Assembly: GCF_018873765.1 (NCBI RefSeq) | Contig: NC_057926.1 | Location: 49,901,043 to 49,965,042 of the forward strand | Direction: 5' to 3' | DNA length: 64,000 nucleotides | Origin: Telopea speciosissima | Taxonomy: Eukaryota > Streptophyta > Magnoliopsida > Proteales > Proteaceae | Shown here: piece after piece, positions 15,596 through 58,762 of the stretch | Layout: each line of letters begins with the position of its first letter | Numbering within the stretch: position 1 is the first letter of the stretch | Position numbers and translations under genes: made by a program | Notes under the pieces: model-generated | Database searches by the model: none | Told to the model about the DNA's origin: nothing | What the model saw: the letters and a program-made list of their open reading frames with translations, nothing else

Positions 15596-18500
15596 TTACA
15601 CATCTAAATAGTTTTTCCCAGTCAAAACATACAACAAAACAAGCAACATCAGTAATTTAATTAACCGAATCAACTGATTCTGAAACCATCTGCAAATTGG
15701 CATTCCAGCAATGATAAATGATGTGACCTTCTTCTGATGCTGCTTCTCCTTCTTGACCTCTATAAGCTTGTCATAGATGCACCATGGAAGACTCAGGAAA
15801 TGATCCCTATTCATTCCCTCACTGTGGCGTCCCCAATAATCAGGATGATATGTTACATGATACCAAGCTGATGCCTTAGCATTTACCTCATCAGGAGATG
15901 AATCTTCCCCAAGTCCCTCATTAAACCTTCTCCTTGCCTCCTCCTTTAAAGACTTAACTGCCAATCTGATTGCCTCTACATCCCATTTCTTAGTGAATGG
16001 TTTCGCCATCTTTGTGATACTACCACTGAGGATCTCTGCCTCATTTTTGATCCCATAATAATCCATTAGGTTTCCCAATTTAGAATCATACTCACCTTTG
16101 TATTGGTAAGCATCATTGATGTAATTCTCAAAGCCATCAACCTCCATGTCAGTGTCATAAGATCTTCTTGCCACCTCCCGAGTAAATCTTATAAAAGACG
16201 TGTCTGTGTCTGATGATTTGTCTTTTATCTCTCTATATAGTTTTCCAATCACTCCCGGCGATTCATAGGTTGGTTTGTCAAGTTTTTCCATGAAATCTGG
16301 ATATTCCTTGACATGTAGATGACCTGGAATTTCTGCTGGTACACCGGTCTTTGGGAAATCGACGGCAATTGAGTGTAGCCTTGCAAGCTCTAAACATTTT
16401 TTGTTTTCTGCCTTGTTTGGTTCCTTATCAGCAAACACTTTGTGAGCATTTGCAATCATTCCAAGCCTTTCATTGAAAATGTAGTTTGTGAAATACTCTT
16501 CAACTTCCTGTAACAGAAAAGGGTAATGCTTAGAGAACATAGTCAGATTGTATTGTAGAAGCTCACATAGCTTCAGTTGAATAACCATGAGAGAGAATTC
16601 TCTAGAAACATATCAAAAGTGAAAGTAAGAAAGAGAAAGTAAAAATATTAAGAAATAATATATAGAGAGAGTTGAGATTTTTTGATAAAATAAACTATGC
16701 ATTAGATGAAACTCATTTGATGGAGATCCAAATTTCCAAGGCATTAGTCAATCCTTGTAGGAACCATGAGTACAGGTTGCTATTTAAAAATCATACTAGG
16801 AAAACTCCATGGTAAGCACTGCATAAAAGAATAAGCAAAAACCAGAATTTTAGATGAAGAAGTACTAAAGAATTTCAGAAGAACACCATGCATCCTATCA
16901 TGGAAGACTAGTACCTCAATCGTAACGTCATGGTCCTGGTAAGAAGGTAGTGCTGCAAGATAGTCCATGGGTTCGATTTGACGAGGTGGAATAAGTGCAG
17001 GGTCCCAACTTACAAAATATATATCTCCATCTAAATCACTCCCTGAACATTCATCTGGGTGTGGTCTAAAACCACAGTTCAGAAATTATTAAAAGTCAGA
17101 TTTAGAGAAGGAATAGTTGAGATTTATACAGACGTTTAAATCAAAGTAATGAAATAAGAGCAAACTATTTATAAAAGAAAAAAAAAGTAAATAAAGCCTA
17201 AAACTCTTATGTTTTGATAGCAATTGTTTAGGAGTGGCTGCTATAAAAACATTCAAAAAATAAAGCCCGAAACCCTTCTGTATTGATAACAATAGATTAG
17301 GAGTTTCTGCTATAAAAACATTCAAAACTGTCCAAATATTTCAGTGTTTATAATAAAACCCAAGTTATAAGAAAACAGAGAAGGGGGGGGGGGGGGCAAA
17401 AACTCAGGTACAGCTACATCTGGGATAGTATGAACTATGATTTGATATAAGTCAAACTAAGATCCTGATTGAGATCACAAAAATATCACAGACCCAGTAT
17501 AGTTGAAAGTTAACAGAATAAAACATGTAAAATGTCCCACCTTGCTCCTTTTTGTGGGAAAACAACGCAATCCACCATATGGTGCAATGCTGGGACATCA
17601 ATGGCACACAAAACACGCACATCACCAGGATGCAAGCATGGGTTTTTAGCAACAATTACCTTTCCCTTAACAATACATTTTTGCTGGTCTGATTCATTTC
17701 TGCCAAACTTAAAAAGGGAATTATCATGAAACTGTTTATGCCCAATGCTAGAAACTTGGACAAATACTTGCCCATATTCCAAGGTTCGAGTTTCATCCAG
17801 ACATCCCATCAATGATCTTCCATATGGAACAAATACCCTTGTCTTTGTTCGCAGTTCTTCAAGCTTTTCTGCTCGGATTGCTTGTAGCATCATTGAAAGG
17901 AATGGTTCAGCACTAGGCTTATAGCCACACATCAACATTTCCTTGAGAACATTACTGTTTTCACCTGGAAACATCAGCTCTAATACTTTCTGTGCCTTTA
18001 ATGGATGGGTTAGAATAGCATCCAGTTCCTCTATAGCCTGCCTTTGCTTCTCTTGAAAAATATGATCTTTGACTCCAAGTGTTGATAAAAGAGTGATTAT
18101 CTGACGATTGAGGAAACAAGGCTGATACTTGCTCCATGTCAGAACACCTAGTTTTGTGTTCTGTGATTCATACTTACACATGCTCTTTCTCAAGGATAAT
18201 TTCATTGCAGACGTAGGATCTACAGCCACAACACCCTTGTAACCACCATATCTTATTTGAAAGGCAGATGGAGTAGAACTTTTTAAGTCACACTTCATTG
18301 CAACTTTCCTTGCAAAATCGGCAGAAATTTTACCAATACCATCTGAGAAAACATACTTCATCTGTCCTCTTTCCAGCTCTATATCAGGGATAATTTCAAA
18401 TTCATGTTTATAAATTTGAAGACTTTCCTTGGAAGAGCTGAAAGATTGACCCAATCTAGCAGCATATTTTGCCACATTTCTTATTTTACGAAAATCACCC

Positions 18501-21426
18501 ATCCATTCTCTGATCTTTGCTGCCGTAAGCCCATCATCTGTTTTAGCAAACATCCATGTAGAACTACCACGCATCTGACTTGTTGAGAAGGCAAGAAAAT
18601 CAAACCTCTTTTCTCCAATAACTATGCCATTTCTTAAAGTAGAAAGTATCCTGTTATAAATTCCAGTATGCCTTTCTTCGCTGGTAGAAAACTTATGTGG
18701 AGATAAATCTGTTGAACGCATTTGATCCAAATTCTCATCAACAAAAGTTACACGAATGAAATTATCAATGTACTTAGGGTAGTTACGTAGCACATGATTT
18801 GAAAGATTAAGCTCTGGACCCCGAAAGTACACTTTACTAGGGGTTATTTGAACCCTGCGAACATATACCAAGCCGGCATTCAAGGAAATTGCAGGGGAAC
18901 TAGGAATACCATTGGATCTGTGGTATCTTTCATATTGCTCACGGAGCCACTCAATAGGTTCATAACAGCATTCTTTTAAATGATACATTTTCTCCAAAGC
19001 ATGCTCTATGTAGTTAACTGGAACAAAAGAAGGGTGAACCAACTTGAAAAAATTGGCATCAAGTGTTGGCCCTGCAAGGCATCCATTCTGAACCAAGGAA
19101 CAAACCTTAAACAGGATTTCAAATGGGAATCTGTGCAACTCAGGAACATCAGGAGGTCCAACAATAGGGACTAGATCCAAATTATTGGAAAATGATGATC
19201 CAGTCTTCACGATGAACTGACCTATATCTTCTTCATAGTTGACAAAGTATTTTTTAAAATCTGGAAGTGCAGAGCTGTATGGAAGCTCCAAACACATGGC
19301 AGAAGATTGTCCAATACCACATGAACGAGTAAAATCTGTTGCTCTATCCCACAGATAATCTGAACCATCCTTAAAATAGTTTAAATTGGGATCAAACATA
19401 AGCTCAGAAGAGGATACAGGTTTCTTATAGATCCGAGGAACACCAAGCACCTGGAAGTTGAAGAAGTTAAGTCATCTGTCTTCACTAACATGCTTTGTGA
19501 AATATTATGAACATGCAGAGCAGTTATGTTATGTTTGGACTACATGACCTTGCAGTAAAAATGGTAAATTTCAAGCAGCATTTTGGAGTCAAAATCTCAA
19601 GCCAATGAGGTAGTAAAAAATTGTATTACATTGATTGCAAACTTAAAACAAGCATTGCTTGCATTCAATTCTACACGATGTACAAAATTTATGTATGAAT
19701 TACAGTACAACATGGTAAGTGTGTTTTTAACTTTTTATAATTTACTACTACTTTTGAACACAGGTTGTTAATCATTAACCCCCCCCCCCCCCCCCCAAAA
19801 AAAAAACCTACAGATTGGTAACCAAAGAATAATGCAATATATCAGTTCCTTATGAAAGCGTTGGCAAAAGAGAATTGAACCCTGCTTGAAGCAGTGGAAT
19901 TCTAGCAGACATGAAGAAGCCAATTCTCTTCACAATGGTAGGACTCGATGTAGCGAAGAAGAATACAAGGTTAACAGATTAACACCAGAAGAATAGGAGA
20001 TTAAAGAATCTGATAAAACTTCTTGGCATCCCAAGTTTCTTTGATACATCCAAATTCCAAATCAGAAAATAGGAAAGACATTACTGAAAACAAAAAGATT
20101 CAAAGCCCGATTAATAAATATCAACCTAATGGTCAGATCATCAATTACATCTGAGAATGATTGTCAGGAATGGAGAACTATACTGTTGCAAAGAAGATTA
20201 CTAGATTAACAGAGTAACACCAGAAGAAAAGGAGATTAAAGAATCTGATTAAACTTCTTGGCATCCCAGGTTTCTTTGATACATCCAAATTCCAAATCAG
20301 AAAATAGAAAAGACATTACTGAGAACAAAAAGATTCAAAGTCTGAGTAATAAATATCAACCTAATGGTCAGATCATCAATAACAGCTGAGAATGATTGTC
20401 AGGAATGGATAATATACTGTTGCAAAACAGATTCAGAGGGAGCTTTTGTGAGCATGGTAATTTGGTCTTACAGGTATATATTGAGGCAATAACCTGTGTT
20501 TATCCACATTAACCAATCAGGTAGGCCTAGCAAAATCAATGTATATGGGCTCATAGGATTTCATATTGATCTCAGACATTGATTGAAATATCATATATAA
20601 GAATTCACTATCAATATAGATAGATCTATAAATTTGTGTATCAACCAATACAGATTTTTTGGTTATGTTTGAGATCAGGCACACACAATTCCAATTGCAA
20701 AAGTAAGATCACATCCACTAGCAGAATACATTAATTCCAGAATCACTTATTATCACCACATAAGCCACTAAATCATTAGGAAACAAGACTAATTAATTAC
20801 ATAGAAATAGAACTAAATTGCAATCTAATCAGGAACAATGACATAAAATCATGATCAAACAGAAAAAAGCAGCAATATTGAAACTGCATCCCAGATACCT
20901 GAAGTAGTATAAACTTTTGTCTCTGTTGATCATTTGGACAACGAAGCTGGATTTTCCTTATGTCCTCATAAAAGAGTTCAAGTTTATATTCTACACCACA
21001 ATAAGACAGGAAGAAGTATATTTTCTCCATTTCAAATCCAAATTTCACCACAACATCCTTCCCTCTGTAGAGAACAGAGAATTGGTCACCTGAAACTTGA
21101 CAACCAAAATGCAATCTTGTATGCTCCAAAGTGAGAATCGAAAGCCTTGGCTCGGTAACTATATCGCGTTCATCCCAAACCTTAAGAATAGAATTTCCAT
21201 ACTTCAAGTGCCCATTAACCAAAGAGGTTATAAGTTCAGCACTGTTAGTAGTTGTGAATTGCACATTAGCATAAGCAAATGTCTTCTTATCTTGCCTTTG
21301 ATTCTTGACTTGCCCAATTTTAAGCACATAAACAGTTCCAGTGCCAGTGTGACCCTCTAGAAATGTCTTAACCTCTTTCACAGTCACATTAGAAGGGAAC
21401 CCAGAAAGATGAATTGTCCTCCCCAT
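15596..21426 (-). CDS. RDR1: RNA-dependent RNA polymerase 1, four coding exons
   Basis: Spliced as complement(15596..16507, 16915..17065, 17541..19450, 20899..21426), giving 1166 residues; GT-AG junctions and phases agree. It copies single-stranded RNA into double-stranded RNA that feeds Dicer-like enzymes in antiviral silencing. The N-terminus (MGRTIHLSGFPSNV) is the RRM-like domain of the RDR1 class. The RdRP core follows, with FSDGIGKIS, YGGYKGVVAVDP and the catalytic DLDGD at 823-827 within CSGSDLDGDIYFVSWD. The C-terminal part keeps WYHVTYHPDYWG and the family-like ending MNRDHFLSLPWCIYDKL. The tail after KKEK is ~45 residues, hydrophobic and unlike the family, so the true end may use another splice site near 15716 or be altered. 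An in-frame TTG precedes the ATG; the ATG is chosen because MG-TI is the family start. The gene looks functional by sequence. Confidence 0.95.
19955..20430. repeat. 235-bp tandem duplication in RDR1 intron 1
   Basis: Two copies offset by 235 bp share TAACACCAGAAGAA, TTCTTGGCATCCCA and ATGATTGTCAGGAATGGA at about 90 percent or better. A poly-C/poly-A tract (19779-19806) lies just downstream on the plus strand. Confidence 0.9.
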
Positions 21427-37987: not shown

Positions 37988-40900
37988 TCAATCATGTTCT
38001 TCACTGTGCCAACCAGGTCTTCCTAAGGTGAATTCCAAGCTAGGATTCTTGATACCCAAATGGGACCCAGGGAAGCTTTTTGATCTGCTGAAATTGCTCT
38101 CCTGTGATGATGGAAGACATATTGTTATCTAAAATCTTCAAGTAGAAATGTTCACATAAAGGAGTGAATTCTGAAAGTATATGGCATTACTGGATAGAGA
38201 TCATTACCTCAACTTGGTGCCCAGGTCTTTGTTGGGACAAGAAGGTTGAAGGTCTATGCCAATCCATGTCACTTGTGTTATTTTGCAGAGGCAATCCTCT
38301 ACCACTGAAAATTATTCATAAAACATAAAAAGTTAGTTTGAACCCAAGAAGTTGTATATATAGAAGAGGAAAAGAAAAAGGGGGGAAACACTAGAAGTTG
38401 AACCTTGAAACAGCCTAAATGTGAAGTATGTTTCTTAAAAGTTTTATGGTGTATTTGTTGAAAAACGAAACCTAACACGATGCAAAAAAGAATGGAAATC
38501 ACAAACAACAATCACACAATGAACACAAGGATTTATGTGGTTCGGTATGATTGCTTACGTCCCCAGTGAGATGAGATCTGTTTCACTATCAATGGAGAAT
38601 AGGGTTACAGCCTCTCGTCCTCACACCTCTCTTAGATTGCATTACGGAGAAAGAAGCCTTGCTATATACTTATAGTGAAACCCTATACAAGAATTTACCA
38701 AAATACCCAAACCAAGCGATGGCTTCTTAATGGCCATTCAGAATCAACCCACAAACCCAGCAACGGAATACAAGACATCGTACCCCCAATAGTATTGACA
38801 GTTAAGGATAAGTACACCTACTCTTTCATGACTGAACAAAAGATGTATGAAGCAAAAACAAAGATGGCATTTAAAAAGGTAAGTTTTTAGATAGGCTATA
38901 TTAGGAATACTAATAATGAAAGATGTCAATTTCAGTGATTAGATGATCAAACTCAAATCTGACCATAATCTTCATAAGTATCATCTAAGGCTACATTAGC
39001 TTAAATAAAGGTATAATTATCTTGAACTACATTAGCTTCTATCTTCAGACCAGCACTGCATCATGCTAGTGTATTACTCCCACTTTAAAGTTTGATTCTG
39101 TTGGTGGTATATGTAGAGAGATCAATCTAGTCTACACTATGGCTAAACCCATTTGATTTCCATAATTTCTTAAAGTAGGATGTAAATTTTATTATGATGT
39201 TATTTGATCAACCTTAATAAGCTGTAGCTCTTAATAGATGAGCCAGAGTGATAATCTTCTTTAAGGAAATTAGATGATATAAATAAATAGGCTTATCTCA
39301 GTTATTATACTAATCCTATTCATTTCTTTAATTAATAATTATTAATAACTAAATAGTGAAATTACTGATCCAGGACACTAAAATTATATATTGCATTGTT
39401 GTTTATCAGATGTCTGATTCATTTTTAAAACTGAGAAAATGAAGGAAAAAGGCAACCCTAGGGGTAGTGCTTGGGAGAAAGGGAGGGATTTGTTTGTGAA
39501 GGGATAGTTGAAGGAAAAGGACTTGTTCAGATTCTTCTTTGAAATATGGTAACATATACACTTATCCTATTGGATAAATATTAGTATATCTTGAAAGAGT
39601 GAAAATGATGTTGTAACCTTACTTTTTGCCCTTTTAGTACAACATTTTTTTTTTTCAAATGAGGGTTGATCCTGTCATTTAACATGTGTAATAGAAAAAT
39701 CTTCAAGATAATGATACATTCTTTACCTTAATAAGTTTGTAACCATACATTCTTTACCCTAATAAGTTGACTTGTCAATTACTTGAAGGGGCTAAGGATG
39801 TAAAGTTACTAACAATGTGTTAGGTACTTGATAAATACACCAAAAGCTACAGAGCTGACGGAACATGTTAAATCAAGCCCTTTAACCTATCACATACTAG
39901 GCTTGTCCAATCTAGCGGCCATACACTAGAGTGGGCCCCATTAGGCATATAACAGACTACCACGCTTCTGCAGCCGTTGTCCTTAGCGGCTCTCACTCTA
40001 GGCAACTTTTACTCTGGCGGTAGGTAGCCCTTTCCAAGCAACTCCACTCTGCTCCAGGATTTTGCCTGATGTTTCTTGACGGCTTTCACTCTACTCCAAG
40101 TAGCCCTTTTCGAGACTCGAACCCGAGACGTGGTGCCCAGCTCTGATACCAAATGTTAGATACTTGACCGATATGCCAAGCGCTCTAGAGCTGATGGAAC
40201 ACGTTAAATCAAGCTCTTTAACCTATCCCATACTAGGCTGGCCCAATCTAACGACAATACACTAGAGTGGGCCCCATTAGGCACATAACATCATTCTTCC
40301 TCCAACTCCGGCTCAGATGTTCCCTTTCCTCTCTCTCTCCCTCAATCACCCTCCCCTACTAGTTCCGACTATGGCTCCCTTTCTTCCTCCACTTTTTTTT
40401 TTTTTTGGTAAAAGCAAATTTTATTGCAAAGAAGGGCAAGAGGAACACAAGGCAACCTAATTACAAGCTTTAAGGAGCCAAGGAGTGGAAAAAGGCCAAT
40501 CTGTCTTATTTACCAGCGACAGGGCCTTCCTGGCTAGAGAGTCCGTGACTGAATTCGCTTCTCTAGAGATTACAAAGAAATTACAAGACTTAAAACTTGT
40601 TGAGAGCACCCGGATATCTTCAATCACACCCACAGCACCAGTAGGGTGGGGGAAGGAATGGGTCATTTAAAAATCTTATAAGATTGGCATTATCGGACTC
40701 CTTTCTCCCTCTCCTTGCTCTAGCTTGCATCTTCCTCCCTCTCTTGCCCACCGCAGCATTGTTCTGCCTGGACCCCTCCCCTACCCAGAATCATCGATGT
40801 TGTAATTCAATCATCTTCTGATACATCAAAAATCAGAATGCATATAATGGGTAGGGCTACCCATCATTTCTCATGGCCTCCAATGGCACTCAAGCATCCA

Positions 40901-47400: not shown

Positions 47401-48937
47401 TAAAATAAGGGTGAAGGGAAAGCAAGACGATTTGTTACCTGAGGAAGCTGCAGGTTTGTCAGTAGTCTTAACAGTTCGATACATCTGCAAAGGAGAAGAG
47501 AAACAAACACTGAGTAGATGAACCAGCGAAGAAGCTGGGGGGTCAAAAAAAATTAGAAATAAAAATAGAAATGGCAAAAACCCCTCATTTCCCCAAAAGA
47601 TAATAGAAACTTTCATTATAACAAAATGTGAAAAAAACCAGTCCAAAATCAATTCCAATACTTCTGTCTCTCTCTCTCTTTCTGTTTGGTAAGGATGGTA
47701 ATGTATTATTGAGAAATGATTTCTGTTACTTTTTATTTTAGATTCCTATTCACTCACTCTTTCTCTCTTACTCTCTCTCTCTCTCTGTCTTTCTCTGTCT
47801 CTCTCTAAAACAAGAAGCTGTCCTTTCTCAGAAATCACTCCATTCATCGGCTACTGTGCCGGAAGAACAGATTAAGAAGATCTGACCGGTCGACCGGTCA
47901 TCGTGCTAGAGAGAGAGAAAAATAACAGAAAAACAAAAAGAAGAAATACCTGTAAATGACTCTTAACATGAGCTAATGTTAAATCTTTAACATCCATAAG
48001 CTCAAGAACCGATTTCGGAGTAGCCCCTGAAAACCAAAATATATCCATTAAAAATCAAATCTAAAAGAATTGAATACAAACCAAAAGACCCAAGAAAGAT
48101 CTTACTTTCATGTCCACCGAGAAGCTCCACCGCATGAACAAATCGAGCATGAAGAGTACTTGTCCAACGCATTCGAGGCGCTCTCATACTCCGTTTCGCC
48201 GGTAGCTTTTGCATAAATCTTGATCTAATCATTCCATGAGAAGTCTCTGAAGCTCCCATTCCATATTGGTTGTGGTGGTGGTGGTGGTAGTACTGATGAT
48301 GTTGTAGTTGGTTAGATTTGAATGAATCTGAAGATAACCCATTAAACCTAGAAACAGCGGCAATCCGATAAGCCGGTGACGGTGATGATGACAGTGACGG
48401 TGACGACGGAGAAGATGAATTGAGTCCACAGCTTAATATTACCATAGGGTCTAAACCTCTTTGTTGAAAGGAAGAAGTTGGAGAAGTAGAAGAAGAAGAC
48501 CAAGAAGGATATGATGACATTGGGTAGAAACACAAGTTTGGATCCTTCTCTCTTGAATTATCTAAAGACATGAAAGGGAATGAACGGTTGTGATACACTG
48601 GAATCCCTTTTATGGGTAATACTCCATCATTTAGATGATTAGTATTCCAGTTACTATTAAGATGATGGAGTTGTTGTTGTTCTTGAGGCACTACTACTAC
48701 TTCATCTTCTTCTTCTTCTTCTTCTTCACTTCCTCTTGTAAAGTTTCTCCCCCAATTCCTTTCAACTTCTAACCCATTTCTTGGGTTAGCCAATGAAAGC
48801 TCTGGGTAAGCTTGTGAGTCTATCTTTACTGAACTATCACTCTCCGGTCGTCGTCCTTGCCAAAGATCGAATCCGGTGTCCGATGAAGGAACTGTATTAG
48901 GAGGGCTAATGTGTAAGGAAAGATCAGGAACCGGCAT
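37988..48937 (-). CDS. KAN1: KANADI-type GARP transcription factor (KAN1-like), six exons
   Basis: Spliced as complement(37988..38101, 38208..38304, 47019..47196, 47439..47484, 47950..48026, 48106..48937), giving 447 residues with GT-AG introns and consistent phases. KAN1 proteins are nuclear repressors that specify abaxial identity in leaves and ovules. The N-terminus PDLSLHISPPN carries the conserved LxLxL-like repression motif. The GARP DNA-binding domain starts at about residue 249 (RSMRAPRMRWTSTLHARFVH), runs through ATPKSVLELMDVKDLTLAH and ends in KSHLQMYRTVK. GQSDGSGDED and the C-terminal NPSLEFTLGRPGWHSEEHD match the KAN1 rather than the KAN4 subgroup. His-, Ser-, Glu- and Thr-rich runs fill the linker. 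Intron 4 is about 8.7 kb and full of transposon remnants; the others are short. The last two exons were found by motif and splice-site reading, so that join is the least certain. Confidence 0.92.
38456..38791 (-). mobile_element. Solo LTR fossil, Copia type, in KAN1 intron 4
   Basis: A 336-bp LTR flanked by a perfect 5-bp duplication GTATT (38451-38455 and 38792-38796). Minus-strand reading ends GAACCACATAAATCCTTGTG...TTCAACA, a usual Copia LTR end. It is close to the KAN1 exon 5 splice acceptor (about 150 bp away). Confidence 0.8.
39818..40290 (-). mobile_element. TRIM (miniature LTR retrotransposon) fossil in KAN1 intron 4
   Basis: Two 137-bp direct LTRs (39818-39954 and 40154-40290), both TGTTAG...ATAACA and about 87 percent identical, flank a 199-bp interior. 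Next to the right LTR the minus strand reads TGGTATCAGAGC, a perfect initiator-Met primer-binding site. It has no coding capacity, as usual for TRIMs. Flanking 5-mers (CAATG, TCATT) do not match. The LTR divergence indicates an old insertion. Confidence 0.85.
40393..40670 (-). mobile_element. LINE 3' end with RNase H-like domain
   Basis: It encodes, in one open frame, VISREANSVTDSLARKALSL and FSTPWLLKACN, the end of the L1-type RNase H domain, followed on the minus strand by a poly-A tail (poly-T at 40395-40408). It is truncated to the last ~280 bp and belongs to the same group as 30590-31355. Confidence 0.85.
41451..41472. repeat. (GA)n microsatellite
   Basis: An uninterrupted GA run next to a purine-rich block at 41320-41450. 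Confidence 0.9.
41621..42012. mobile_element. MITE with ~75-bp terminal inverted repeats (392 bp)
   Basis: The left end GGGTAAATTACACATCA and following CCCCTGGTTTTCAAACGAAA are repeated inversely at the right end (TTTCGTTTGAAAACCAAGGG then ATGTATAATTTATC). Flanking AAATTAA at 41614-41620 and 42013-42019 is a likely 7-bp duplication. No coding region is present. A half-copy lies at 9160-9222. Confidence 0.8.
42685..43500 (+). mobile_element. Copia-type LTR fossil, split by a hAT element
   Basis: It starts TGTTGGGGTACGATGTC, matching the minus-strand start of the LTRs at 38791 and 60493, and ends near 43500 after GAACCACATAAATCCTTGTA. A hAT element at 42869-43309 divides it. The LTR alone would be about 370 bp. 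Confidence 0.75.
42869..43309. mobile_element. hAT-like non-autonomous element, family A (441 bp), nested in an LTR
   Basis: The ends are TAGGGTTGTAAC and TTGTACCCCTA. A perfect 8-bp duplication AATGCAAT lies at 42861-42868 and 43310-43317. The related LTR at 37 kb has this site once (37180-37187, CTACAATGCAATCTGAGAGA) without the insertion, which fixes both ends to the base. Confidence 0.93.
43564..44619 (+). mobile_element. Non-LTR retroposon, ~1.06 kb, with 14-bp target-site duplication
   Basis: It is flanked by GGTAGACTATTGCA at 43550-43563 and 44620-44633. The 3' end TGAATTTACCAAAATAAAAG is a poly-A-like tail as in LINEs. Inside, an open frame of 229 codons (43698-44387) contains EGRKISKPYPLASS and no domain I recognise. 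A partial second copy lies at 51411-51965 next to a LINE end. I read it as an internally deleted LINE or a LINE-mobilised non-autonomous element, perhaps holding ORF1-side sequence. A short frame starting MARTGASPTLV precedes the long one. Confidence 0.8.
45646..46087 (+). mobile_element. Solo LTR fossil, Copia type, in KAN1 intron 4
   Basis: A 442-bp block with perfect inverted ends TGTTAG...CTAACA. The interior near the right end, CGTGGATGTAGCCAA...GTGAACCTCGTAAATATC, is typical of Copia U5. Flanks CTATT and TTATT match in 4 of 5. Confidence 0.7.
47883..47900. other. 18-bp perfect palindrome in KAN1 intron 2
   Basis: TGACCGGTCGACCGGTCA is its own reverse complement, with nested ACCGGT repeats, in an otherwise CT-rich intron. 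It could be a binding site for a dimeric factor; its role is unknown. Confidence 0.8.
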
Positions 48938-56125: not shown

Positions 56126-57231
56126 GTTCAGCTCAACACCCCTAGGGCCCAAACCAAAACATCCTTTGGAGATCAACAATTAAAACCCCTTTCTTATTCT
56201 CTTGGTGTCATGCAACAAAAAATAGATAAATCAAGGCCGGCAATAGAATGCTAATCGGTCATGTAACACCTATACCAGTACAAGGATTAATAAGAATGCA
56301 TGCAGGAGCATTTAAATGAATGAGATTTTTTAATTTACTGAGAGTTGAACGATAATTTTGCACGATCATATGTCTAGACGCAAGAATCATGCGATCAGTT
56401 ACCATGTTTTTTTTACCATAAAAGACAAGAGAATATATTGGAGAATGAATAGCTCCATTGATTCTGCTCCTCTTTTGACACTTTCTCAGTATATCACTCA
56501 CTCACATGCAAACACTATAACACAACATTCTTGGTGGGTCCAACGCAACAGTTAGCATGTGTGGTCTCGTCTTTCACTAGCTCCATCAACTAGTGAGAGA
56601 TTAAGAGGGTTTCTAAGTAAGAAAAGGAGTTTTAGTAGCAGTAGTAGTAGTAGTGGTGAATCGGCTTTCGTGATTCCCAAAAAACATAAGGGACCTTTTA
56701 AGAAGGTCTGTGTTTTGCTTTCTTGTAGTTGACATGACAATGTGATGCTTCTTTCTCTCCAAGGTGACGACAATCCATACAAACTTGCAAAGCAAAGCAA
56801 TGCAACCAATTAATCCTTCCTTTCCGTCTCTCTCTCTCTCTCTCGTGCCTGCAATCTGCATGGGAGAATAATATCATTCCCTGTTTCTTTAGCTTTTTCC
56901 TATAGGGCCTAAGAAAAGTAGTGCTACCCATATCCGGAAAAGTAACATTAGACAGACCTAGCCCCACCTCTTCTTTTGACGAAGAAAACAAAACCCATTT
57001 TCCTTCCATTTTATTCTTTTCACAAGAGCAATCACTTTGAATTCAACCACTCCTCCTCCTATAGTCCCACCCCAACATGAGAGAGAGATGCATCAGTCCA
57101 AGGAAGTTAAAACTTTGAACCACCTATCAAGTCTTGAACTCTTAATTACTTAACCATAGCTAGCTTTAGAAACTAAAGCAATCAATTGTTTTGGATTGTT
57201 TATTTTTTTTTATTTTTTATTTTTTATGTTA
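56126..57231. other. Gene-free stretch
   Basis: It contains TC runs (near 56828-56844) and short Leu-rich frames on the minus strand made by AGT/TAG triplet runs. No recognisable gene. Confidence 0.4.
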
Positions 57232-57236
57232 AAGAA

Positions 57237-57561
57237 TGTCGGGCCTAGAAGGTCAGCGTCTCCTCGTGACTCTGAGACTAACCTGCACAAGGAAATAATC
57301 TTGCGTCCTTAATATCATCAATTGGTTTTAATGTAGTGGTATGCGTTTGATCTGAAAGACCAACAATTGATATCAGAGTCACGATCGTAGGTTCGAATCA
57401 TTCTGCAAATGCTGAAGGGGGGATTGTTGGGCCTAGAAAGTCAGTGTCTCCTCGCAACTCTGGGACTAACCGCTCGCTCTGCATAAAAAAATAAACTTGC
57501 ATCCTCATGACCACCAATTGGTTTTAATGTAACAGTAAACGTTTGATCCGAAAGACCAACA
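57237..57561 (+). mobile_element. TRIM (miniature LTR retrotransposon), structurally complete fossil (325 bp)
   Basis: LTR 1 is 57237-57365 and LTR 2 is 57425-57561, both TGT.GGGCCTAGAA...AAGACCAACA. Between them are only 59 bp, with ATTGATATCAGAGTCACG at 57366 (a degenerate initiator-Met primer-binding site) and a GAAGGGGGGA purine tract just before LTR 2. A perfect 5-bp duplication AAGAA flanks the whole (57232-57236, 57562-57566). The LTRs are about 85 percent identical, so the insertion is old. It has no coding capacity. Confidence 0.9.
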
Positions 57562-58150
57562 AAGAAGAAGTTGTATAAGTGATTACGGGCTAGTAGGGGT
57601 GTGGCCTTTTGTCTAATCATTTCAGTTTATTAGGTTTTCATGGGTAGACCCTGGGCTCACAGTTCTTATATCCTCTTCGGATTTCTCTTCCAACTTGATT
57701 CAACTATAGAGATATGCCATGGTTTTTGTTGTGGAGCTCCCTCCATTCATTTTTTTTTATCTCTATTTATATTCCTTCCTCCATTTGTGTTTTTTTTGGG
57801 GGGGGGGGGGGGAGAATTCTAGGTTTCGTTGAATATATATTTTAATTACAAAAAAAAAATAAAAAAATGAACAATTAAAATGGGCAAACCGGGAAAACTT
57901 ACCTGACTATGAAATAATCTGTCATTTTTTTATCATAATCCATTTTGCAACTTGTCATGTGATGTGTGTGTGATATTCCTTCCCCCTTCCAGAACCCCAC
58001 AAGGATTTGGTTGTTGATGTGATTAGAGCTCCATCAAGAAATAGTTAATACTGCAGCCGAGCCCAGCCTAGATCCATGACCATGGCTGTTAAGTACTGCA
58101 CACCAAGCTCAACATTGTACACACAACCACTCATTAAATTTGTAAGGAAT

Positions 58151-58302: not shown

Positions 58303-58574
58303 CCCTTTCATTTATACTACTACATTGACATGAAAAATGTGGTAGAATGATGTGACAATTCTGACCATTGGATAGATAAATATATGTTTGGATTAGTCAC
58401 CTGTTAAATTTTAGAACCTAATTCAATCAAATACCCTATCATGTATTGGCATTTATCTATGTATTTTTCAATTGATCGTGTATGCCCATATTTTCCTTCC
58501 CCTTATATTTTCAAAACTTTATTTTGCTACTTGGTGGGATCTATTTGGGCTAAGACTTGATATGTAGGCGGGGG

Positions 58575-58762
58575 CCATTAATTGGGTTCCACATTTTCGC
58601 AAAATTTGGACCTCATCTAATGTGCCTTTCGTAAGCTTAGAAAGTCTTTACCCAATTTGTAATGGTGGCCATTAATTGGGTTCCACATTTTCGCAAAATT
58701 TGGACCTCATCTAATGTGCCTTTCGTAAGCTTAGAAAGTCTTTACCCAATTTGTAATGGTGG
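58575..58762. repeat. Perfect 94-bp tandem duplication
   Basis: Two head-to-tail copies (58575-58668 and 58669-58762) appear identical by eye, so the duplication is very recent. The second continues into a retroposon-like 3' tail ending CACCCCAAAAAAAAATAC at about 58900. Confidence 0.9.

Follow-up and report, generated by a model that had tools for sequence, protein, structure and literature searches.

A compact TRIM family in Telopea speciosissima with a possible split tRNA-type Pol III promoter

Introduction

The described elements closest to the one reported here, within the open-access (PMC) literature, are the Helenus elements and the wider TRIMp3 group. In the account given in the cited parts of Kojima 2024 (PMC10886601), TRIMp3 denotes Pol III TRIMs in general and Helenus any TRIM whose LTR contains a tRNA-like sequence; Selaginella is there the only plant with Helenus, and its element (Helenus-1_SMo), which is similar in size to the one here, has an LTR of 120 bp and an interior of 85 bp. 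The same account describes Cassandra RNA as carrying an 18-bp repeat at both ends, through a start in the 5' LTR and a stop in the 3' LTR. SMART (FRetro129) is 292 bp long with 85-bp LTRs and a 122-bp interior, as summarised in PMC3281118, and larger elements with similar LTRs are known for 11 of 289 TRIM subfamilies according to the figures quoted from Gao et al. 2016 (PMC4717578). For TRIMs, which do not code, the mechanism of transcription seems open in most families.

Here we describe a TRIM within a 64-kb stretch of T. speciosissima DNA (64,000 nucleotides on contig C11, referred to throughout as the window), together with its relatives in the 823-Mb genome (1287 contigs). Taken as a whole, the statement that this family, D, is a TRIM with a Copia helper and a split Pol III promoter is one that we put forward tentatively, at a little under even confidence.

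Results

A complete 325-bp element in the window

The element occupies 325 bp (57237–57561; TGTCGG...CCAACA) with an exact AAGAA at both flanks, so that both the boundaries and the perfect 5-bp duplication of the complete TRIM recognised in the original prediction are exact. Its parts are as follows.

57232..57236, no strand: left target-site duplication (TSD), AAGAA
57237..57365, plus strand: 5' LTR (LTR1), 129 bp, TGT...ACA
57366..57424, plus strand: interior, 59 bp, without coding capacity
57368..57381, plus strand: primer-binding site (PBS) TGATATCAGAGTCA, initiator tRNA-Met type, two transitions off the exact complement
57414..57423, plus strand: polypurine tract (PPT) GAAGGGGGGA, one base 5' of LTR2
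57425..57561, plus strand: 3' LTR (LTR2), 137 bp
57562..57566, no strand: right TSD, AAGAA

The two LTRs had been put at about 130 bp each with TGT...ACA ends; the pair stands, and the lengths are corrected to 129 and 137 bp, a difference due to a single 8-bp gap. They are identical at 107 of 129 aligned bases, with 18 transitions, 4 transversions and 8 gap columns (K2P 0.20), and their local alignment score of 129 compares with a maximum of 37 among 989 pairs of 130-bp stretches drawn at random from the 64-kb window, so the pairing is not due to chance. Tandem Repeats Finder gives no entry at 57237–57561, so the LTR pair does not belong to a longer tandem array, and the order of LTR and PBS is kept; the two observations named beforehand as speaking against a TRIM are thus both absent at this locus. 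The purine tract expected before LTR2 is present, and the PBS-like motif expected after LTR1 is real, with the qualification that it reads TGATATCAGAGTCA in place of TGGTATCAGAGCCA, the sequence antisense to the 3' end of the host initiator tRNA-Met (iMet) gene once CCA is added to the gene. The plant iMet sequence has nine exact copies in the host genome.

TRIMs are defined, in the cited part of PMC4717578, by a length below 1,500 bp without gaps, the absence of a retrotransposon protein, and copies with different TSDs. The element is 325 bp long; no ORF of at least 80 aa overlaps 57237–57561, from which the absence of a retrotransposon protein is judged; and different TSDs are carried by L001 (the window copy), L003, L005, L006 and L083 and by the solo LTRs L087, L088 and L084. 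The interior, originally called extremely compact, is indeed shorter than those of SMART and Helenus-1_SMo, and we claim no record size. We conclude that 57237–57561 is almost certainly a genuine, well-formed and old TRIM copy.

Several features of the window lie beside the element. A 94-bp unit is present twice with 100% identity at 58573–58762, 1 kb downstream of the TRIM. Part of a gene for an RNA-dependent RNA polymerase (PF05183, E 1.7e-138) is located at 17510–19450 on the minus strand, and a 311-aa ORF without a Pfam match at 48002–48937 (minus strand), about 8 kb from the TRIM. The latter resembles a KANADI/GARP transcription factor.

Dispersed copies of family D

Nucleotide searches of the genome returned at least 44 matches with the whole element and at least 50 with LTR2, and these include what was expected of a family, dispersed copies that keep the order of LTR and PBS and differ in their 5-bp duplications. 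It is plausible that family D was previously undescribed. The best match (L002) is 82% identical over the whole query and the remaining matches that span most of it are 68–79% identical, so under a strict rule of 80% identity over 80% of the length only L002 would belong to the same family as the window copy; identities of 68–79% are, at the same time, expected if the copies are old. Both LTRs were computed for nine complete copies, in which K2P between the paired LTRs is 0.095–0.262. Because flanks of roughly 2–3 kb are shared within the pairs L004/L005, L006/L018 and L008/L024, these are duplicates and the nine copies represent six independent insertions. The window copy has at most a few bases in common with L002, L003, L006 and L008 beyond the element. 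The duplications found are listed here.

Exact TSD: AAGAA (L001, window copy), CAAAC (L003), TGATA (L005), AATTG (L083)
Exact TSD, one event in L006 and L018: AAAAT
Inexact TSD: GGATT/GTTTT (L002), TGATA/GGATA (L004), CGAAC/TGAAC (L008), CAAAC/TGAAC (L024)
Solo LTRs with TSD: ATAAG (L087), CTTCT (L088), TAACA (L084)

No TSD is seen at other single LTRs, L014, L035 and L085 among them. The substitution rate in grasses is 1.3e-8, and rates in trees are slower; at 1.3e-8 the window copy would date back about 8 million years, and at tree rates it would be several times older.

When 37 interiors or starts of interiors are aligned, several of them partial or foreign 3' of the PBS, the alignment contains the PBS, a block with the majority sequence AAGGTCGCAGGTT.GAGTCACT, and a G-rich PPT before LTR2. 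One related locus has a tandem form, in which two 34-bp interiors without a PBS stand between three D-type LTRs (L074, 601–1079).

A- and B-box-like motifs on either side of the PBS

The consensus of the A box is TRGYNNARYGG and that of the B box GGTTCGANTCC, and AGGTC is the rule for a tRNA variable loop. Motifs resembling both boxes, which the original prediction did not include, occur in the window copy.

57326..57329, plus strand: T4 run, the sole T run of at least 4 in LTR1; putative Pol III stop when met in the 3' LTR
57329..57339, plus strand: A-box-like TAATGTAGTGG, 8 of 9 informative positions of the consensus; shares the last T of T4
57382..57398, plus strand: tRNA-like block of variable loop, T-stem 5' strand and T loop
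57390..57400, plus strand: B-box-like GGTTCGAATCA, 9 of 10 informative positions; starts 61 bp from the A-box start
57522..57525, plus strand: T4 run of the 3' LTR, the sole T run of at least 4 in LTR2

The block after the PBS, which includes a B box, reads tRNA-like in the sense direction and follows tRNA order, as a variable loop, five stem bases and the T loop TTCGAGT; in some other copies it is AGGTC GCAGG TTCGAGT. The variable loop AGGTC is shared by 5 of 18 sequences from D and 2 of 4 from A (family A is described below). The column majority at the LTR end is T4 followed by TAGTGTAGCGG, which is an A box at every informative position. None of 400 shuffles reached the joint scores of the window copy (A 8/9 and B 9/10). 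Both boxes score at least 8 at the fixed 61-bp spacing in 9 of 18 D copies, and the best score falls at the same place in 13 of the 18 for the A box (that of L079 is shifted by 4 bp) and in 16 for the B box; poor scores are given by L018 (p 0.44), L069 (p 0.44) and L073 (p 0.04). Across the A-box columns of 46 D LTRs, 16 score 9, 16 score 8, 11 score 7 and three score less, so that 32 reach at least 8, as against 4 of 1199 T4-anchored sites in the window, a set that includes the window copy's own LTR1 and in which none of the four reaches 9. T4 runs are confined to this one LTR place in 9 of 10 complete D copies, L007 having one extra at an uncertain start. Their number is not below that of shuffles (means 0.7–2.1 in D) and it is in place alone that they are constant, which may be due to descent.

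We saw no match to the tRNA covariance models of Rfam at E up to 5 in 56900–57900, an interval with no Rfam match above the gathering score, and none at E up to 10 in 14 loci; the T stem is mostly unpaired in D (0–3 of 5 pairs). The motif was, moreover, recognised after looking at the data, which counts against reading it as a split promoter. Judged by eye, D and family B have a CAA triplet some 10 nt 5' of the A box, and A has none there; the cited part of PMC11700998 names CAA triplets a short distance upstream as sites where transcription of plant tRNA genes starts.

Two further candidate features were set aside. An inverted repeat directly 5' of T4 (D, CCAATTGG; B, AAGACGTCTT; A, AGCTtcggAGCT) is common by background, as stems of at least 4 precede 199 and stems of at least 5 precede 65 of 1200 T4 runs in the window; the stem length is 5 in D and L044, 4 in A and L109, and 3 in the window copy. 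Descent from the iMet gene in the sense direction gave p 0.014 in L003, but 0.13, 0.36 and 0.22 in three others.

Similar arrangements in other families

A copy of a second family, A, is present in the window.

39818..40290, minus strand: family A TRIM copy, 473 bp
40154..40290, minus strand: LTR
39955..40153, minus strand: interior
39818..39954, minus strand: LTR

Its LTRs are identical at 117 of 137 positions, and it has no clear TSD (AATGA/CATTG). The layout of T4, A box, PBS and B box is that of D, with T4 lost in its LTR1; for the family it consists of T4 and TGGCGTATTGG (8/9) or TGGCATATCGG, the PBS, and GGTTCGAGTC. The family A loci (L104, L107, L108 and the window copy) were all fetched through the B box, and thus only their A box counts as a test. 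Three comparisons of A and D LTRs revealed no significant similarity (p 0.69, 0.28 and 0.41), the best stretch in one of the three being the T4–A box itself. Three family A modules are spaced 364 bp apart at C10:58806018–58806783.

Family B includes copies with exact TSDs.

L044: AATTA
L061: AACAA
L068: CCTCT

Its layout is weaker, with T4, an A box like TGGGGGATTGG, and AGTTTGAGTC; the A box scores 6–7 of 9 in five copies and the B box 7/10 in four of the five, with p values against shuffles of 0.09–0.30 in four copies and 0 in L109. The family B LTR is related to that of D (0 of 300 shuffles, two comparisons) and so does not provide independent support. In family C (L105, L106) GGTTTGAATC is positioned 4 nt 3' of the PBS and the A box is absent (best 5–6 of 9). 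A B-like box is thus found without an A box, which argues against attaching meaning to a B-like box alone.

Genome-wide, a PBS plus B box occurs at 98 exact places, most of them not family D and 10, by hand count, family C; the reversed control gave none. The full arrangement T4-A-PBS-GGTTYGA is present at 38 places, which by reading of the list are 37 of family A and one of B; there were no matches with the reversed pattern or with a complemented A box. That none of the 38 is in D reflects decay of its exact motifs. Dropping the B-box requirement yields 185 places, and the 100 of these that were listed comprise 32 of family A, one D-like (L031) and 67 of B type; 20 of the 32 listed family A sites and none of the 67 B-type sites are among the 38. 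On its own, the PBS word is present 15,389 times. With T4 at that distance, the PBS and GGTTYGA and no A box required there are 142 matches, some sites being counted twice where the T run is longer, and among the roughly 100 that were listed, many LTR ends are CT-rich and have no A box. None of 26 further loci that carry the CCAACA-ATTGRTATCAGAG word has A and B both at 8 or more; the best are A 7 (L048) and B 7 (L048, L051), and L048 has a family-B interior. That at least two, and perhaps three, TRIM families here have a split Pol III promoter with the PBS nested between A and B is a possibility to which we give somewhat less than even weight.

Association with Copia elements

At L032 a D-like LTR and PBS are followed by a decayed Copia gag (PF14223, E 3e-6, a 48-aa piece), with boxes of A 7/9 and B 6/10, and this pairing identifies Copia as the likely helper. 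L031 has a D-like LTR (A 9/9, B 6/10) whose next stretch is Copia-like by eye without a Pfam match, and in L025 the D-like LTR and PBS lead into uncharacterised sequence (A 9/9, B 5/10). Behind a family-B-type LTR end, L046 has an open frame of 371 aa matching Copia gag (E 1.4e-21), with boxes of A 6/9 and B 7/10; an exact B-type T4-A end with an L046-type leader is present at four of the 185 T4-A-PBS sites of the genome. No second D-like LTR was seen within 5.4 kb downstream of L032, no Pfam match was obtained for one ORF each downstream of L032 and L031 or for two further L032 pieces, and no partner with intact genes flanked by D-type LTRs was found among the loci examined. Proteins were probably supplied by a Copia element as helper.

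An ORF on the opposite strand near L034, with a Copia pre-integrase match (E 2.4e-17), was taken to be an unrelated neighbour. At about 1410–1540 of L046, the end of a family-B TRIM and that of a Copia-type LTR stand head-to-head, both cut near AAAAG...CTTTT, in what looks like a product of reverse transcription or recombination.

Alternative explanations

The foremost alternative is an ordinary Pol II TRIM that arose as a deletion derivative of Copia. In such an element the A-box-like end would be inherited from the Copia LTR, the B-box-like block would be fortuitous or an inherited leader without promoter function, and AATAAA in R and the next T/G-rich stretch would be poly(A) signals; this alternative, taken as a whole, we consider credible to a degree just short of an even chance. 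T4 with an A box does end LTRs that lack a B box, some of them adjoining Copia remnants, and those adjoining LTRs have the same end and no good B box. Conservation within D also favours Pol II transcription, as the A box is no better conserved than the LTR at large (83rd of 127 windows by identity, and 38th of 127 by transversions and gaps) and AAATAAAGTTGC and CCAATTGGTTTT are, AAATAAAGTTGC being the best conserved of five blocks compared; the conservation of both would suit a Pol II poly(A) region as well. The Pol II alternative does not account for the presence in families A and D, with unrelated LTRs, of T4, an A box and, after the PBS, a B box in tRNA order, when both boxes reach 8 in none of the 26 other PBS loci.

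In yeast Ty1, extra boxes pair with the T arm of initiator tRNA-Met. That the post-PBS block is likewise an extended contact with the iMet primer is very improbable: GGTTCGAGTC resembles, by eye, the antisense of the iMet T loop, but antisense similarity past the PBS is no greater than in shuffles in four sequences (p 0.38, 0.14, 0.11 and 0.82), and T4 and the A box are left unexplained. A chance tandem duplication of 130 bp rather than a retrotransposon, in favour of which stands the three-LTR array at L074, is refuted with near certainty by the exact TSD, the other TSDs of dispersed relatives, the conserved PBS and PPT, and the flanks that the window copy does not share with four other copies.

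Discussion

Judged from motifs, the possibility that a split tRNA-type Pol III promoter drives family D falls slightly short of evenly balanced. On the split-promoter proposal, a Copia-derived TRIM with an A-box-like sequence already at the end of its LTR would have gained the B box in its leader. Pol III RNA would be made from the A box at the LTR 3' end after T4 and the B box 3' of the PBS, beginning some 10 nt before the A box of LTR1 and ending at the corresponding T4 in LTR2, and the short R repeat left over would serve strand transfer in a manner similar to that of Cassandra with its 5S promoter. In LTR retrotransposons a tRNA primes the minus strand and the PPT the plus strand, and integrase makes the 5-bp TSD. 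With proteins provided in trans by the Copia element, initiator tRNA-Met at the PBS would prime reverse transcription and the PPT would give the second priming.

As the boxes are split, the promoter would be present only in a complete 5' end, consisting of LTR and interior, and neither in a solo LTR nor in the 3' LTR. If the proposal is correct, each complete element would have one working promoter, at its 5' end, with solo and 3' LTRs silent, and the same would provide a rule for fossils, in which complete 5' ends can make RNA and solo LTRs cannot; this rule on RNA-capable pieces would differ from those for Cassandra and Helenus. The 59-bp interior also sets a very low bound on the cis needs of an LTR element, namely a PBS, one tRNA-like block and a PPT.

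The element resembles TRIMs as characterised in the cited part of PMC4717578 in being small and non-coding with two LTRs, with copies that have different TSDs and with some tandem forms, and differs in its 59-bp interior and in its A- and B-box-like motifs, which are not part of that description. With SMART (FRetro129), taken from the summary in PMC3281118, it shares the 5-bp TSD, TGT...ACA ends and the very small size of a plant LTR element; the interior of SMART is 122 bp versus 59 bp here, a comparison of descriptions rather than of sequences. Cassandra, so far as its outline in PMC10886601 extends, is similar in starting in the 5' LTR and stopping in the 3' LTR with a very short R, as proposed here, and different in that the promoter within its LTR is that of 5S rRNA; 56900–57900 gave no 5S match at E up to 5, which bears out the original view that this is not Cassandra. 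Helenus, within the same outline, is likewise a TRIM whose A and B boxes, of tRNA type, have been proposed to form a Pol III promoter, and has the PBS, PPT and, in plants and fungi, the 5-bp TSD that are also seen in the window element. In Helenus, however, both boxes are inside the LTR, whereas here A is in the LTR and B in the interior with the PBS between them, and for this reason we do not file the element as Helenus, even though it may work like it. If the split promoter is real, it would represent a third Pol III TRIM architecture, beside those of Cassandra and Ajax, with 5S in the LTR, and of Helenus, with a tRNA in the LTR.
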